In this document: in pieces, positions 12,780 through 17,793 of the stretch
How positions within the stretch are numbered: the first letter of the stretch is position 1
Layout of the letters: every line of letters starts with the position of its first letter
From: a virus
Virus record (IMG/VR): IMGVR_UViG_3300028837_004144
Span: 1 to 37,895 of that record
DNA length: 37,895 nt
Direction: 5' to 3' (one strand)
Notes under the pieces: model-generated
Seen by the model: only the letters and a program-made list of their open reading frames with translations
Told to the model about the DNA's origin: nothing
Databases searched by the model: none
Made by a program: the position numbers and the translations under genes

Positions 12780-13757
12780 ATGGCCGTTAGCGCAGCCGCT
12801 ACCCTGCAACGCCCGGACCTGGGCGTTACCATCGAGGAATACCGGCTTGAGGCGCTCAGCCGGTCCCTCATCGCCGACCAGGCGCTGCCGCTGTTTGAGG
12901 TGGCCCTGCAATCCGCCGAGTTCGGCGTGATCCCGGTCGAGACTGGCCTGCGCGTCCCCGACACCAACCGGGCGCCCGGCGCCGCGTACCCGCGCGGTGA
13001 CTGGCAGTTTGAGACCGACTACTATGCTTGCTCCGAGCATGGTTGGGAGGAGGTGGTTGACGACAGCCGCGCCGCCATCTACCGGCGTTTCTTCGACGCC
13101 GAGCAAGCGACCGCGAGAAAGGCGGCCAAGGTCTTTTACACGGCCCGCGAGTACCGGGCCTCGGCCTTGCTGTTCAACACGACCACCTGGTCGGTGGCGG
13201 ACACCGAAAAGCAGACGGTTAGCGTGGAGTGGGACACGTCGGCCACCGCCGTGCCGCGCGCCGAGATTCTCAAGGCCCGCAAGCAAATCCATGCGGTGAC
13301 CGGCCTCGAACCGAACGCGCTCATCGTGACGTGGAGCACCTACCATGACTTGCTCAACTGCGCGAGCATTCTCGACGCCCTGAAATACACCGCGCCGCTT
13401 GAGGTCAGCCCGGAAGTTGCGCGGCGCCGCATCCTGGCCACCGTGCTCGGCGTTGATCGGATTCTGGTCGGGGGTGCCATCTACAACAGCGCTCTCGAGG
13501 GCGCCACGCCAACGCTCGTGCCCGTGTGGGACGACGAGTACGCCATGCTGGCCTGCGTCTGCGAGGAAAACGCGGACCTCGAAATCCCCGCCGTCGGGCG
13601 CACGTTCCTCTTTACCGGCGACTCCCCCGACCTGGTGGTCGTGGAAAGTTACCGCCTTGAGGAAAGGCGCAGCGACGTGATCCGCCTGCGGCAGCACGTG
13701 CACGAGAAAGTGCTCCGCAAAGACGTGGCCATCCTGTTTGACAACATCACCACCTGA
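12780..13757 (+). CDS. major capsid protein
   Basis: 325 aa. The layout fits an HK97-fold capsid protein: an N-terminal arm with LEALSRSLIADQALPLFEVALQSAEFGVIP, an extended loop region with RVPDTNRAPGAAYPRGDWQFETDYYACSEHGWEEVVDD, a long spine-like helix (FFDAEQATARKAAKVFYTAREYRAS), and a C-terminal domain with VTGLEPNALIVTWSTYHDLL and RRRILATVLGVDRILVGGA. It has the strongest ribosome site of the head genes (GGAAAGGAG), as expected for the most abundant protein, and follows protease, scaffold and decoration genes. Confidence 0.88.
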   Translation: MAVSAAATLQRPDLGVTIEEYRLEALSRSLIADQALPLFEVALQSAEFGVIPVETGLRVPDTNRAPGAAYPRGDWQFETDYYACSEHGWEEVVDDSRAAIYRRFFDAEQATARKAAKVFYTAREYRASALLFNTTTWSVADTEKQTVSVEWDTSATAVPRAEILKARKQIHAVTGLEPNALIVTWSTYHDLLNCASILDALKYTAPLEVSPEVARRRILATVLGVDRILVGGAIYNSALEGATPTLVPVWDDEYAMLACVCEENADLEIPAVGRTFLFTGDSPDLVVVESYRLEERRSDVIRLRQHVHEKVLRKDVAILFDNITT

Positions 13758-13830
13758 GTCATCTTCCGCGCAATCCACCGGCGCCGGGCCGGCCGGCCGG
13801 CCCGGCGCCCGAGCCCGTCGGGGGCCGCCA

Positions 13831-14181
13831 ATGGGAGCACCACGTCGTGCCGACCCGAATGGCTGTGGGGGCAAGCACCTGAAACTGGTGCTGGCCCTGG
13901 GCCTGCCCGTGATGGCCCTGGTGCTGGCCATCAGCGCGTGGGTGCACACCGGCGCCGCCTCGGCCCTGGCCACCCATCAAAAGGCCCAGGCCGCCGCGGC
14001 CGCGGTTTCCGAGACCCGGCTGCGGTCCCTTGAGGGTGACCGGGCGAGCCTGGTGACCGCCACCGATAACCTGCGCAGGGAACTCGAGCGCGCCCGCCAG
14101 GACGTCCGGCAGGCCATGGCCGACCTCAAGCGCGAAATCGACCGGCTGCAACCGCGGCCACCGACGGCCGCGGACAACTGA
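13831..14181 (+). CDS. membrane-anchored coiled-coil protein (i-spanin-like)
   Basis: 116 aa. A short basic N-terminus is followed by one membrane segment (about residues 17-38, LKLVLALGLPVMALVLAISAWV) and then a coiled coil of some 65 residues (VSETRLRSLEGDRASLVTATDN onward), ending in a short Pro-rich tail. This is the architecture of an inner-membrane spanin (Rz-like). The next gene encodes a lipoprotein, which would be the outer partner. Spanins normally lie beside endolysin and holin, not after the capsid gene, so the assignment is provisional. A structural membrane protein is the alternative. ATG 13831 follows a GGGGG tract; the longer frame overlaps the capsid gene. Confidence 0.55.
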   Translation: MGAPRRADPNGCGGKHLKLVLALGLPVMALVLAISAWVHTGAASALATHQKAQAAAAAVSETRLRSLEGDRASLVTATDNLRRELERARQDVRQAMADLKREIDRLQPRPPTAADN

Positions 14182-14194
14182 AAGGGTTTCATTC

Positions 14195-14716
14195 ATGCGG
14201 TATTTTGCCATTGCGATTTGTCTTGCCCTGGCCGTCCTGGCTGGCTGCGCCAATCCCGCCATCGAGCAAGCCGAACGCCTGCAACTGGCGGGCCTGGAGC
14301 AATACCGGGCCGAAATGCAAACATATCACACCAAGAGCCTGGCCACCATCCGCGCGCTCAATCTTGAAAAACTGGACGCCGCTTTCACCGATTCCGTGCG
14401 CCTGGCCGCCGTCCCCCCACCCGATCCCGCCGCCGAGGGCGCCGAGCCGATGGTCCCCCTGTCGGCCGTCTTTGAGAAAGTCGCCAAGGTCGCTGCGCTG
14501 CGCGCCGACCTTGAGATCAAACTGACCACGCTCGACACCCAATTTGCCGAGCGTGATGCCCTGGCCGCCCGCCTGATCCGGATAGGCCAGGGCAAACTCG
14601 ACCTCATCACCGCCTACACCCGGCTGGCCGCGGCGTGGCGTGCGCTGTGGACCCGCGAGCCGGAGTTTGCCGATTTGTCCGCCGATGCCAGAAAGGTGCT
14701 CGAAGATGGCCAGTGA
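14195..14716 (+). CDS. lipoprotein (possible o-spanin)
   Basis: 173 aa. The N-terminus MRYFAIAICLALAVLAGCAN is a clear lipoprotein signal: positive charge, hydrophobic core, and LAGC lipobox with Cys at residue 18. The mature part is largely helical (IEQAERLQLAGLEQYRAEMQ; VAALRADLEIKLTTLDTQFAERDAL) with a Pro-rich loop (AAVPPPDPAAEG). It starts 14 bases after the coiled-coil membrane protein, as expected for a separate i-spanin/o-spanin pair, but it is much longer than typical o-spanins. AAAGGG precedes the ATG. It overlaps the next gene by 11 nt. Confidence 0.6.
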   Translation: MRYFAIAICLALAVLAGCANPAIEQAERLQLAGLEQYRAEMQTYHTKSLATIRALNLEKLDAAFTDSVRLAAVPPPDPAAEGAEPMVPLSAVFEKVAKVAALRADLEIKLTTLDTQFAERDALAARLIRIGQGKLDLITAYTRLAAAWRALWTREPEFADLSADARKVLEDGQ

Positions 14717-14972
14717 AGCCGACCTTACCGCCGCCGCCGCCAACTTCATGCGCGAGGCCGCCCGCTACAGCGCGGCCGCCAGGGACCCGGAGGACCCGCT
14801 TGACGGGGTATCGTTCAGGGTCCCCGACCTGGGGGGCCTTGACCCGGTGGTCACCGACGAGGACGCCAGCGCCGTCATCGCGCGGATGGGCGCTGCCAAG
14901 GCGCCGGCCGAAGCCATCCCGGCCCTGGTGACCATGGCCCGCAGCCTGGCCACGTTCTTTGGCCTGGCGTGA
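14706..14972 (+). CDS. hypothetical protein
   Basis: 88 aa starting MASEADLTAAAANFMREAA. I do not recognise it. It is soluble, Ala-rich and helical, with an acidic centre. GAAAGGTG at 14691-14698 and an 11-nt overlap with the lipoprotein gene support the start and suggest translational coupling. Its context between lipoprotein and a two-helix membrane protein hints at a lysis or membrane-related group, but nothing in the sequence shows this. Confidence 0.6.
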   Translation: MASEADLTAAAANFMREAARYSAAARDPEDPLDGVSFRVPDLGGLDPVVTDEDASAVIARMGAAKAPAEAIPALVTMARSLATFFGLA

Positions 14973-15042
14973 TCCCAGGGTCTCGGGCCAGGTGAAACCA
15001 ACACAGGGGGCGAGATAACCGCCAATCGAAAGGAGCGCACAA

Positions 15043-15255
15043 GTGTGTAACATCTTCACCAGTAAAAAGAGCGTCATGGCCTTGCTGGCCGTGGCCATGG
15101 TTTTTGCCCTGGGCATCGTGGTGTTGGTCACCCACGTCGAATCCTTCGACCAGGCCAAAGAGGTGATGTTCTACCTGGTCGCAAGCATCACCGGCATCGC
15201 GGTGGGGCATAACGTCAGCCAGGGAATCGCCGACCACGGCAAGCCGGCCGAATGA
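15043..15255 (+). CDS. small membrane protein (holin-like)
   Basis: 70 aa, GTG start preceded by AAAGGAGC. Two hydrophobic segments: about residues 10-31 (VMALLAVAMVFALGIVVLVT) and about 42-57 (MFYLVASITGIAVGHN), joined by a short charged loop, with a charged tail. This fits a class II holin. The two upstream genes look like spanins, which strengthens the idea of a lysis group, but no endolysin is adjacent. A minor membrane protein of other function cannot be excluded. Confidence 0.55.
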   Translation: MCNIFTSKKSVMALLAVAMVFALGIVVLVTHVESFDQAKEVMFYLVASITGIAVGHNVSQGIADHGKPAE

Positions 15256-15295
15256 CCTGGCCGACGCCCTGTAAGGAATGACCCGTTTGACCAGC

Positions 15296-15329
15296 GGGGG
15301 TCGGCACGGGCCGCCCCGTGTCGGCCCCC
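15296..15329 (+). promoter_or_regulatory. strong stem-loop upstream of the Cys-rich gene
   Basis: A 15-bp stem with two G-U pairs (15296-15310 with 15315-15329) and loop CCGC. No T-run follows, so it is not a classic terminator. It lies 24 bases before the ATG at 15353 and may be a processing or attenuation element. Confidence 0.6.
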
Positions 15330-15352
15330 ATGTTTCAAGATAGGGGCAAAAC

Positions 15353-16459
15353 ATGGCATACGCATTGTGCTGTTATTACGGGGGTGGCGGGGCCGAGGCG
15401 TGTTTGCTCTGTGTGCCGGACTCGACGCCCGGCGCTGGCGGGGCCGCCCTGGTCGCCGACCTCAAGATTTTGGCCGACCGCATCGGTCCCTGCAAATACG
15501 ACGCTACCGCAGCGCCCACCGCCGATGATGACGAGAATGACGGCTATCGGGTGGGTTCCCGGTGGTTCAACCTCACCACCCAGGACGAGTATATCTGCAT
15601 CGACGCCACGGCCACGGCGGCCGTGTGGATAGCAACAACCCTTGCGCCGGGCAGTGTGGGTACCTCGGACCTGGCCGACCTGGCCGTGACCACGGCCAAG
15701 TTGGCCGCCGGCGCCGTGACCGTCGCCAAGATTGCGCCCTTCGGCGAGGGTGAAACCTTGCTCTTTGGGTGCGGGTGTTGCGGCATCATCCATGGTTGCG
15801 ATGATGCCGGTACGCCGTACCTGTCCATTGCCCACCCCACCCGGCTCTGCCTTGAGACCGGCTGCATCATTACGGCCGGCAGCATTTGCGCCGGCCCGAT
15901 CGTCAGGGGTACCTGCCTCGTGGCGGCCGAGGCCGTGGTCGCCGGCACCTGCGCGCACGCCAAGTTGGTGTTTGCCTCGTGCTGCGGCATCGTGGGGTGT
16001 TCCGATTTCGCCGCGCTGCCGGCCGGGTGCCTTTGCACCACCAAGGCCGAGTTGGATTCGACCTATTACAATGCCGAGATGGCCTTTCTCAAATCTGAAG
16101 CCAACTGCATGTATCTGATGTGCGTCAGGGCCTGCGGGGGCCCCGCACAACTGCAAGTCAACTGGTCGGACGGTGTGGGTCTGGCCAATCTGGGCAAACT
16201 GATTGTCGGCGAGTGCTTACAGGGCGGGTGTCAGGTGGAATCGCCCTTGCTCACAGTTACATGCGGGAACGTCGATTGCAACCTGGTGGTGGGCGAAGCC
16301 ATCACGGCCGGATTGCTCAGCGCCTGCGCTGTTGTGGGTGGCGAACAACTGCTGGTGCCTGGCAACCAATGCGAGGTGACCCGCAATATGTATTGGGATG
16401 GCACCGACCTGATGGTCTATACCGGCGCCGCCTGGGTGTGCTTCTGCCAGAAATCCTAA
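15353..16459 (+). CDS. cysteine-rich fibre-like structural protein
   Basis: 368 aa with about 31 cysteines, in pairs or clusters throughout (ALCCYY, CLLC, FGCGCCG, SCCGIVGC, CLC, CFC). The N-terminal third has DGYRVGSRWFNLTTQDEYICID and LADLAVTTAKLAAGAVTVAKIAPF, typical of fibre or appendage proteins (x-T-x-KLA-GAVT repeats). The C-terminus NMYWDGTDLMVYTGAAWV is also fibre-like. The middle is beta-rich with regularly placed cysteines (GCIITAGSICAGPIVRGTCL), suggesting a beta-helix with stacked Cys. Neighbours in the structural operon are Cys-poor, so this is specific. Ligand or disulfide role is unknown. ATG 15353 follows AGGGGC. Confidence 0.7.
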   Translation: MAYALCCYYGGGGAEACLLCVPDSTPGAGGAALVADLKILADRIGPCKYDATAAPTADDDENDGYRVGSRWFNLTTQDEYICIDATATAAVWIATTLAPGSVGTSDLADLAVTTAKLAAGAVTVAKIAPFGEGETLLFGCGCCGIIHGCDDAGTPYLSIAHPTRLCLETGCIITAGSICAGPIVRGTCLVAAEAVVAGTCAHAKLVFASCCGIVGCSDFAALPAGCLCTTKAELDSTYYNAEMAFLKSEANCMYLMCVRACGGPAQLQVNWSDGVGLANLGKLIVGECLQGGCQVESPLLTVTCGNVDCNLVVGEAITAGLLSACAVVGGEQLLVPGNQCEVTRNMYWDGTDLMVYTGAAWVCFCQKS

Positions 16460-16484
16460 TCGCCGGGGGGCGAAAGGGTGTGAT

Positions 16485-17468
16485 ATGCGTACCGATTTCG
16501 ATAGCGTTGCCCTGGTGGTCGAAGGGGGCATCGGCCGGTGTATCGCCGCCACGGCCGTGGTGCGGTGCCTGGCCGCCGCCCATCCCGGCAAGCGCCTGGT
16601 GGTGGTGACCGGGTGGCCGGACCCCTTTATCGGCAATCCCCACGTGGCCCGCATCTACCGCATCGGGGACCCGCAGCATTTCTTTGAGGACGAGGTGCTC
16701 GGCCGGCGCACCTGGGTGGCCCACGTGGAACCGTACCGCCATCCCGATTACGTCAACGCCGAGCGGCACCTGGTCGATTGCTGGTGTGATCTGTTGGGGG
16801 TCGAGTATGACGGCGGCACGCCTACCCTCTTTTTGACGCCGGGGGAACTCGATCAGGGCAAGGCCGCCATGGCCAAGGCCCGCCGGCCGGTGGTGCTCAT
16901 GCAGGCCAGCGGCGGCCCGGTACCGGCCACCCAGGACCTGGACCGGCTCATCGAGGTACGCCGGCGGATGCACCGCCGCAACCTGCCCTTGAACATTGCC
17001 GGCCAGGTGGCCAATGCCCTCATGGCCAAAGGCTACCACGTGGCTCTGGTACGGCATCAGAACCAACCGGCCTTGGCCGGCGTCGAGTCGGTGACCGGCC
17101 CCCTGCGCACCATCTTCGCCCTCGTGCCCTTCGCCAAGCACCTGGTGCTCATCGACTCATTTATGCAGGATGCAGCCGCGGCCCTGCAACGGCCGGCCGT
17201 GGTGTGTTGGGGGGGCACCAGTTACAAGCGCCTGGGTTGGGACCTGCACACCAACATCGAGCAAGATACGGGATGCCCCACTCCCAGGTGCCACCGCCCC
17301 AACAGTTATCTGTGGGACCGCGACGCCAACGGCAATCCGTGGGATTGTCCCTACGGCGATAAGTGCATGAATCAGTTTGACCCCAAGGGCATCCTCGCCG
17401 CCCTGGGGGAGAGCGAAACCCAGAAAGGGGAACCCGATGCCACTCAAAGTGGACCTGGCGGCCGGTGA
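16485..17468 (+). CDS. GT9-like glycosyltransferase (heptosyltransferase fold)
   Basis: 327 aa. VEGGIGRCIAATAVVRCLAAAHPGKRLVVVT at the N-terminus corresponds to the GDxxxxTP-type loop and first Rossmann unit of ADP-heptose:LPS heptosyltransferases. The C-terminal domain has LVLIDSFMQDAAAALQRPAVVCWGGTSYKRLGW, the nucleotide-sugar side of GT-B enzymes. A C-terminal cysteine set (CPTPRCHRP, then CPYGDKCM) is common in phage-type GT9 relatives. It follows the Cys-rich fibre-like gene by 25 bp, so it may glycosylate that or another virion protein; alternatively it changes host LPS. GAAAGGGTGTG precedes the ATG. Confidence 0.75.
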   Translation: MRTDFDSVALVVEGGIGRCIAATAVVRCLAAAHPGKRLVVVTGWPDPFIGNPHVARIYRIGDPQHFFEDEVLGRRTWVAHVEPYRHPDYVNAERHLVDCWCDLLGVEYDGGTPTLFLTPGELDQGKAAMAKARRPVVLMQASGGPVPATQDLDRLIEVRRRMHRRNLPLNIAGQVANALMAKGYHVALVRHQNQPALAGVESVTGPLRTIFALVPFAKHLVLIDSFMQDAAAALQRPAVVCWGGTSYKRLGWDLHTNIEQDTGCPTPRCHRPNSYLWDRDANGNPWDCPYGDKCMNQFDPKGILAALGESETQKGEPDATQSGPGGR

Positions 17469-17793
17469 AACCGCCCTGGCGACGGACCTGCCCGCGGCGC
17501 ACCTGGTGGTTAAGAGCGTGACCATCAAGATGCCGGCGGCGGCAACGGAAACGGCCGCGGCCGAGGCTGAGGTGCAGGTGTACGCGAACGGGGCTGCAAG
17601 GGCAGCCGGCGGGCAGCCGGCGGAAAGCCTGCCCGTCCGGCTCGAAGTGCCGGCGGATGATTGGGCCGTCATCGAGGGCTTGGTATTTGATGCCCTCAAG
17701 GCGGCCGACCCGACCTTTATCCGCGCTGTGCCGGTGGAAGACACGGTGCCCGCACGCCCGGCCCCAGCGCCCGAGGTACCCGAAAGCCCATGA
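17437..17793 (+). CDS. hypothetical protein
   Basis: 118 aa from ATG 17437 with AAAGGGGAA upstream, overlapping the glycosyltransferase end by 32 nt. I do not recognise it. A hydrophobic/Val-rich first part (AHLVVKSVTIKMPAAATETAAAEAEVQVY), an Ala-rich centre and a Pro-rich acidic end (RPAPAPEVPESP). Its stop overlaps the next ATG (ATGA). Position suggests a minor head or connector component. Confidence 0.6.
   Translation: MPLKVDLAAGETALATDLPAAHLVVKSVTIKMPAAATETAAAEAEVQVYANGAARAAGGQPAESLPVRLEVPADDWAVIEGLVFDALKAADPTFIRAVPVEDTVPARPAPAPEVPESP

Follow-up and report, generated by a model that had tools for sequence, protein, structure and literature searches.

Cysteine-rich fibres and a GT9-type glycosyltransferase travel together in diverse phages, suggesting S-linked glycosylation of phage fibres

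The sequence that we analysed (the window) is a viral record of 37,895 bases, and its features of interest are collected in Table 1. The major head protein was used to place the cassette described here and to find relatives (L003–L007, at 41–45%). Because in one of these relatives, L005, the next gene begins 8 bp after the capsid gene at the equivalent place, the 4-kb stretch of the window that carries a fibre-like gene and a glycosyltransferase (GT) gene looks like an accessory insert.

Table 1. Features of the fibre and glycosyltransferase cassette, in positions of the window.
Feature	Position	Strand	Evidence
Major head protein	12780..13757	+	phrog_1005, E 4.9e-42
Stretch with fibre and GT, between the major capsid gene and head-completion/tail genes	13738..17793	+	comparison with L005
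Cys-rich fibre-like protein, 368 aa, 31 Cys, proposed acceptor	15353..16459	+	ORF and PHROG matches
Fibre framework, residues 85–128	15605..15736	+	phrog_892 E 2e-6, phrog_28766 E 1.2e-4 (tail fibre families)
Cys-dense region, residues 140–365, 25/31 Cys	15770..16447	+	Cys positions
GT9-fold glycosyltransferase (by model), 327 aa, proposed protein S-glycosyltransferase	16485..17468	+	AF2 model, PDB matches
GGIGR, GT residues 14–18; family motif GGxG[K/R], in place of WaaC/WaaF GD (catalytic Asp)	16524..16538	+	alignment
IDS..Q(H/D)AAAAL..PAVV.WGGT, GT residues 223–246, GT9-type C-terminal donor-binding motif	17151..17222	+	hhalign with WaaC/WaaF, E 1.2e-6
Four GT Cys (264, 269, 288, 294) near the C-terminus, also in L010	17274..17366	+	alignment

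Cysteine accounts for 8.4% of the fibre-like protein (residues 6, 7, 17, 20, 47, 82, 140 ... 365), and the binomial tail for at least this many cysteines is about 6e-20. Because cysteine codons make up only 0.93% of the 14 other window genes, codon or base composition was ruled out as the source of the excess. The first-pass annotation of this DNA had reported a protein with about 31 cysteines (roughly 8% of its residues) among Cys-poor neighbours, with a GT9-like enzyme 25 bp downstream, and all of this was borne out; the GT ORF begins 25 bp past the fibre stop codon. The cysteines, which that annotation had described as regular clusters, are indeed concentrated in one region, but their spacing is irregular, with adjacent CC and CxC pairs. 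Its fibre-like framework is retained with some reserve: the PHROG matches are weak and span residues 49–128, and they place the protein with tail fibre families over a short segment and, at 4.7e-9, with a family of unknown function. Direct searches of the phages and viral_contigs collections returned no relatives of the fibre, and there was no match to it among the Cys-rich proteins of the loci with which it was compared. An AF2 model of the fibre alone reached a pLDDT of 32 and was left unused.

The GT was modelled with AF2 from a 51-row alignment (pLDDT 86, pTM 0.86), and the model has a GT9-type GT-B fold; a SunS-type GT-A (GT2) fold is absent. The PDB matches of the model begin with the GT9 enzyme 3tov (Z 24.4), WaaF (21.1), TibC (20.8) and WaaC (20.7); after these heptosyltransferases come chains of the chloroplast NDH supercomplex (Z 18) and other GT-B enzymes from Z 11.6. 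The predicted heptosyltransferase-like fold is accompanied by a donor motif of the form D(S/T)xxxHxxAALxxP, which aligns with that of WaaC and WaaF. PF01075 matched five of nine members of the GT family (best 1.1e-4), the window enzyme not among them; the window enzyme also had no NCBIfam match, and a PDB sequence search with it alone gave only noise. Relatives in viral_contigs were found with an alignment query, the single window sequence having given none, and the cyanophage/Vibrio branch of the family is only remotely similar to the window enzyme (about 24%). A scan of a bacterial genome collection (genome_contigs) returned one relative (L266), in a Flavobacteriaceae MAG contig that is likely to be of phage origin; there the GT gene is flanked by low-Cys collagen-like (GTQGTQ-repeat) proteins.

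The phage enzymes have lost the catalytic Asp of the GD loop (WaaC Asp13). Lys occupies this position in 50 of the 51 aligned members and Arg in the window enzyme, and another nine phage enzymes also have Arg (GGxGR). As an acceptor, a thiol would depend less on help from a base than a hydroxyl, which may bear on this loss. The phage GT resembles the LPS heptosyltransferases WaaC and WaaF (GT9) in fold and C-terminal donor motif but differs from them both in this substitution and in travelling with fibre genes instead of LPS genes. SunS and ThuS are GT-A S-glycosyltransferases of bacteriocins; they place a sugar on Cys, as we propose for the phage enzyme, but act on small peptides, whereas the phage enzyme is GT-B/GT9 by its model and would act on phage fibres. 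TibC, a protein heptosyltransferase, O-heptosylates Ser of autotransporter passengers; it begins with a beta-barrel domain and contains an iron finger that is conserved (Cys339/342/358/370) and the catalytic Asp110 (PMC4358343). The phage GT shares with TibC and AAH (the BAHT enzymes) a GT9-type fold and, as proposed here, an adhesin-like protein target and an ADP-heptose donor. Unlike TibC, the window enzyme goes with Cys-rich candidate substrates and lacks the beta-barrel, its model aligning from TibC residue 92 on, and it has Lys/Arg at the loop position of Asp110, as judged through WaaC/WaaF. The four cysteines near its C-terminus, found in the window enzyme and L010 and absent from the seven remaining sequences of the alignment, lie roughly at the position of the TibC iron finger with a different spacing, and are possibly a metal site.

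Cysteine-rich proteins recur beside the GT in other phages. We examined the two closest relatives for which gene context was available; in the closer, L010 (40% identity), the gene upstream encodes a fibre of 357 aa with 38 Cys that is also Tyr- and Gly-rich, and the GT of L011 has beside it two proteins with Cys contents of 6.4 and 6.9%. In 46 loci of the Pelagibacter type, the mean Cys content of the gene immediately before the GT, which nearly always encodes an NTAVG-type fibre, is 2.0%, and that of the other ORFs is 0.87%. Cys-rich proteins accompany the GT in P-SSM2 (two of 10.1%), S-CAM3 (three of 8–11.6%), S-SSM7, Sf-FS3 and S-CAM1 (three each, about 8–12%), AG-345-O18 (9.6 and 10.7%) and AG-345-P14 (9.2%). 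A protein of 4.1% Cys directly precedes the GT in Aeromonas phage HJ05 and one of 4.4% directly follows it in Vibrio phage SBP1; Vibrio D505 has a protein with 41 Cys in 1,756 aa, and the HTVC112P fibre has 14 Cys. Among 487 ORFs of at least 200 aa in control phage loci without the GT, none contained 6% Cys or more. No protein of at least 3.5% Cys was seen in the GT-containing T4-like records G081, G083, G084, G085, G086, G088 and G094, all of which are apparently fragments. Among the accompanying fibres are solenoids of the NTAVG and NNFFG types, proteins rich in Gly, and Vibrio tail proteins; fibre folds differ among the GT phages, and the common elements are cysteine and the enzyme. The pattern is recurrent across phages and not confined to one appendage.

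Selection of loci through the GT could itself have produced this link. We therefore sampled solenoid (NTAVG/NNFFG-repeat) fibres, one proposed acceptor class of the GT family, using Cys-free segments as queries, in two samples with two repeat types, and the link persisted. “Surface” cysteines were defined here by the variability of their repeat position, not from structure. Most fibres sampled with the NTAVG query had neither surface Cys nor a GT. In the first sample, surface Cys was present in 5 of 5 records with the GT and absent from 69 of 75 without it; in each of the six exceptions the contig breaks off inside the fibre, inside a second fibre or shortly past it, and in two cases the break falls within the opening codons of the GT gene. 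In the second, surface Cys was present in 23/24 records with the GT and absent from 28/37 without it, and for six of the nine exceptions the contig runs out at the fibre or no more than about 1.2 kb from it. Fisher P values were 1.9e-5 and 2.7e-8, respectively, and are too small because the related contigs are not independent. The three exceptions left in the second sample, L335, L340 and L346, have surface Cys and sequence that continues past the fibre, and searches with PF01075 or the P-SSM2 GT found nothing in them. Two of these records carry GT25-type genes (L340:12505-14767 and L346:1610-3919), which are possibly an alternative partner enzyme.

The presence of the GT goes with a positional switch in cysteine. 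At six variable repeat positions, Cys occupies 8.2% of sites in Pelagibacter-type fibres with the GT and 12.3% in others with it; in fibres without the GT it occupies 1 of 7,830 sites. Ser, Gly and Asn barely differ at these positions, and in the Pelagibacter-type comparison the only strong change was in Cys, with no rise in Ser, Thr or Asn. The GT-lacking fibres examined have few cysteines, mostly at conserved small or core positions, and the relatives with readable repeats have theirs at variable positions, outside the conserved core. A third fibre type behaves similarly: the tail protein of SBP1, which has the GT, contains 41 Cys, and its relatives in VBP32, 1.097.O, 1.066.O, 11E33.1 and Vaitephage contain 4–6, the GT being undetected in the records of these five phages.

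In cyanophages, genes of the ADP-heptose type adjoin the GT. The best NCBIfam matches beside the GT in P-SSM2, S-CAM3 and S-SSM7 included heptose-7-phosphate kinase, heptose-1-phosphate adenylyltransferase and ADP-heptose epimerase (HldE/HldD-like); these are best hits that fall below the NCBIfam equivalog cut-offs, and the genes tested varied by phage. They are accompanied by a carbamoyltransferase, matched in P-SSM2 and otherwise known from annotation. Heptose is absent from cyanobacterial LPS (PMC4515613), and therefore cyanophages would need their own supply of ADP-heptose; where the host is another Gram-negative bacterium, its own supply could serve the phage. A P-SSM2 gene annotated as phosphoheptose isomerase (PSSM2_311) was rejected as part of this set: it has no SIS domain, and its best match is a HAD phosphatase family. 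This gene (L256:23312-23653) and L175:13921-14238 both match best to a HAD-type capsule phosphatase family (EcbF) and are probably misannotated.

That the GT and the surface cysteines are functionally linked we regard as nearly certain, and S-glycosylation of the fibre cysteines is quite likely the form that the link takes. Taken together, the window pair is likely an acceptor and its enzyme, the latter a phage-specific GT9-fold protein S-glycosyltransferase, probably an S-heptosyltransferase, that caps the cysteines of the fibre. Transfer to Cys is suggested by the co-occurrence of Cys and GT, and use of ADP-heptose by the HldE/HldD-like neighbours in cyanophages; heptose is the sugar we favour, with less assurance than we attach to the linkage.

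The sugar is where an alternative fares best. S-glycosylation with a sugar other than heptose, or with heptose in cyanophages only, overlaps with the explanation just given as a sub-case and is, in our judgement, unlikely. GT9 includes enzymes with donors other than ADP-heptose, the branches of the GT family have diverged widely, and the donor-type genes found were those of cyanophages, with none from the window or the Pelagibacter phages; against this, the best structural matches of the GT are ADP-heptose enzymes, and donor-type genes adjoin it in all three cyanophages tested. We consider it rather less probable still that the GT O-glycosylates Ser, Thr or Tyr of the fibre while Cys has a linked role, such as a second modification or metal binding. 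TibC, which has the same fold, does modify Ser (PMC4358343), and some fibres, such as that of L010, are rich in Tyr and Gly as well as Cys. However, only Cys changed strongly in the Pelagibacter-type fibres, and the phage enzymes lack the Asp that serves O-heptosyltransferases as a base.

The first-pass annotation had offered S-linked glycosylation, metal loading and disulfide stapling on an equal footing, and the phage comparison favours the first. High Cys is common in disulfide-rich extracellular proteins, and the CC and CxC pairs of the window protein would suit stapling or cross-linking of the fibre by disulfides, or a metal site, with the adjoining GT modifying something else. Yet surface Cys is almost lacking in GT-free fibres of the same fold and present in GT-containing fibres of other folds. 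Because surface Cys tracks the GT across unrelated fibre folds, a pattern predicted by neither stapling nor metal binding, and because the solenoid cysteines sit at variable positions and not in the conserved core, which argues against stapling inside a beta-helix, we think this explanation very improbable. Hitchhiking of GT and Cys-rich fibres in a common accessory region, without functional coupling, is hardly credible: both do lie in often-exchanged fibre/accessory regions, but their association turns up repeatedly, in several fibre folds and groups of phages, and two of the high-Cys contigs scored as lacking the GT end inside the GT itself.

If S-glycosylation is the right explanation, the GT would load the exposed thiols of the neighbouring fibre with a sugar, for which heptose donated by ADP-heptose is the likeliest candidate. 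A newly made fibre would be capped in the reducing cytoplasm of the host and would acquire many S-linked sugars, an oxidation-proof coat that may shield or tune the fibre. Where the host makes ADP-heptose for its LPS, the transferase alone would suffice, as we propose for the window phage and for the Pelagibacter, Vibrio and Aeromonas phages, whereas cyanophages would supply the ADP-heptose genes and a carbamoyltransferase. Surface cysteines without the GT would be selected against because they would oxidise or cross-link after lysis. We lean slightly towards the broader view that phage-specific S-heptosylation is widespread, coating fibres of unrelated folds, with surface Cys tolerated in these fibres only where the enzyme caps it.

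The pairing of GT and Cys-rich fibres points to a route, apparently widespread and not described before, by which phages attach sugars to their fibres through sulphur; in the literature that we searched (open-licence PMC papers), no report of S-glycosylated phage fibres was found. In mycobacteriophages, a phage-encoded GT is likewise thought to decorate virion proteins, but to our knowledge without any coupling to cysteine. If our proposal is correct, phages of marine and freshwater bacteria, including cultured phages of Prochlorococcus, Synechococcus, Pelagibacter, Vibrio and Aeromonas, carry a dedicated machine for building sugar coats on fibres. A number of hypothetical Cys-rich proteins would then have a function, as would cyanophage ADP-heptose genes that otherwise resemble host-metabolism genes, and a GT9-type enzyme would become available for the synthesis of stable S-linked glycoproteins. 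The phages in culture offer a ready test of the claim.

If fibres do carry heptoses, those of some phages are probably carbamoylated or sulfated. Sulfotransferase genes lie directly beside the GT in the two T4-like loci tested (L061:6883-7815 and L036:4988-5950), which suggests further decoration of the sugar. Other genes lie in clusters of the GT and Cys-rich proteins: Sf-FS3 (L257) has annotated prolyl-hydroxylase-like 2OG dioxygenases and a second carbamoyltransferase-type gene, and S-SSM7 (L258) an annotated tryptophan halogenase.
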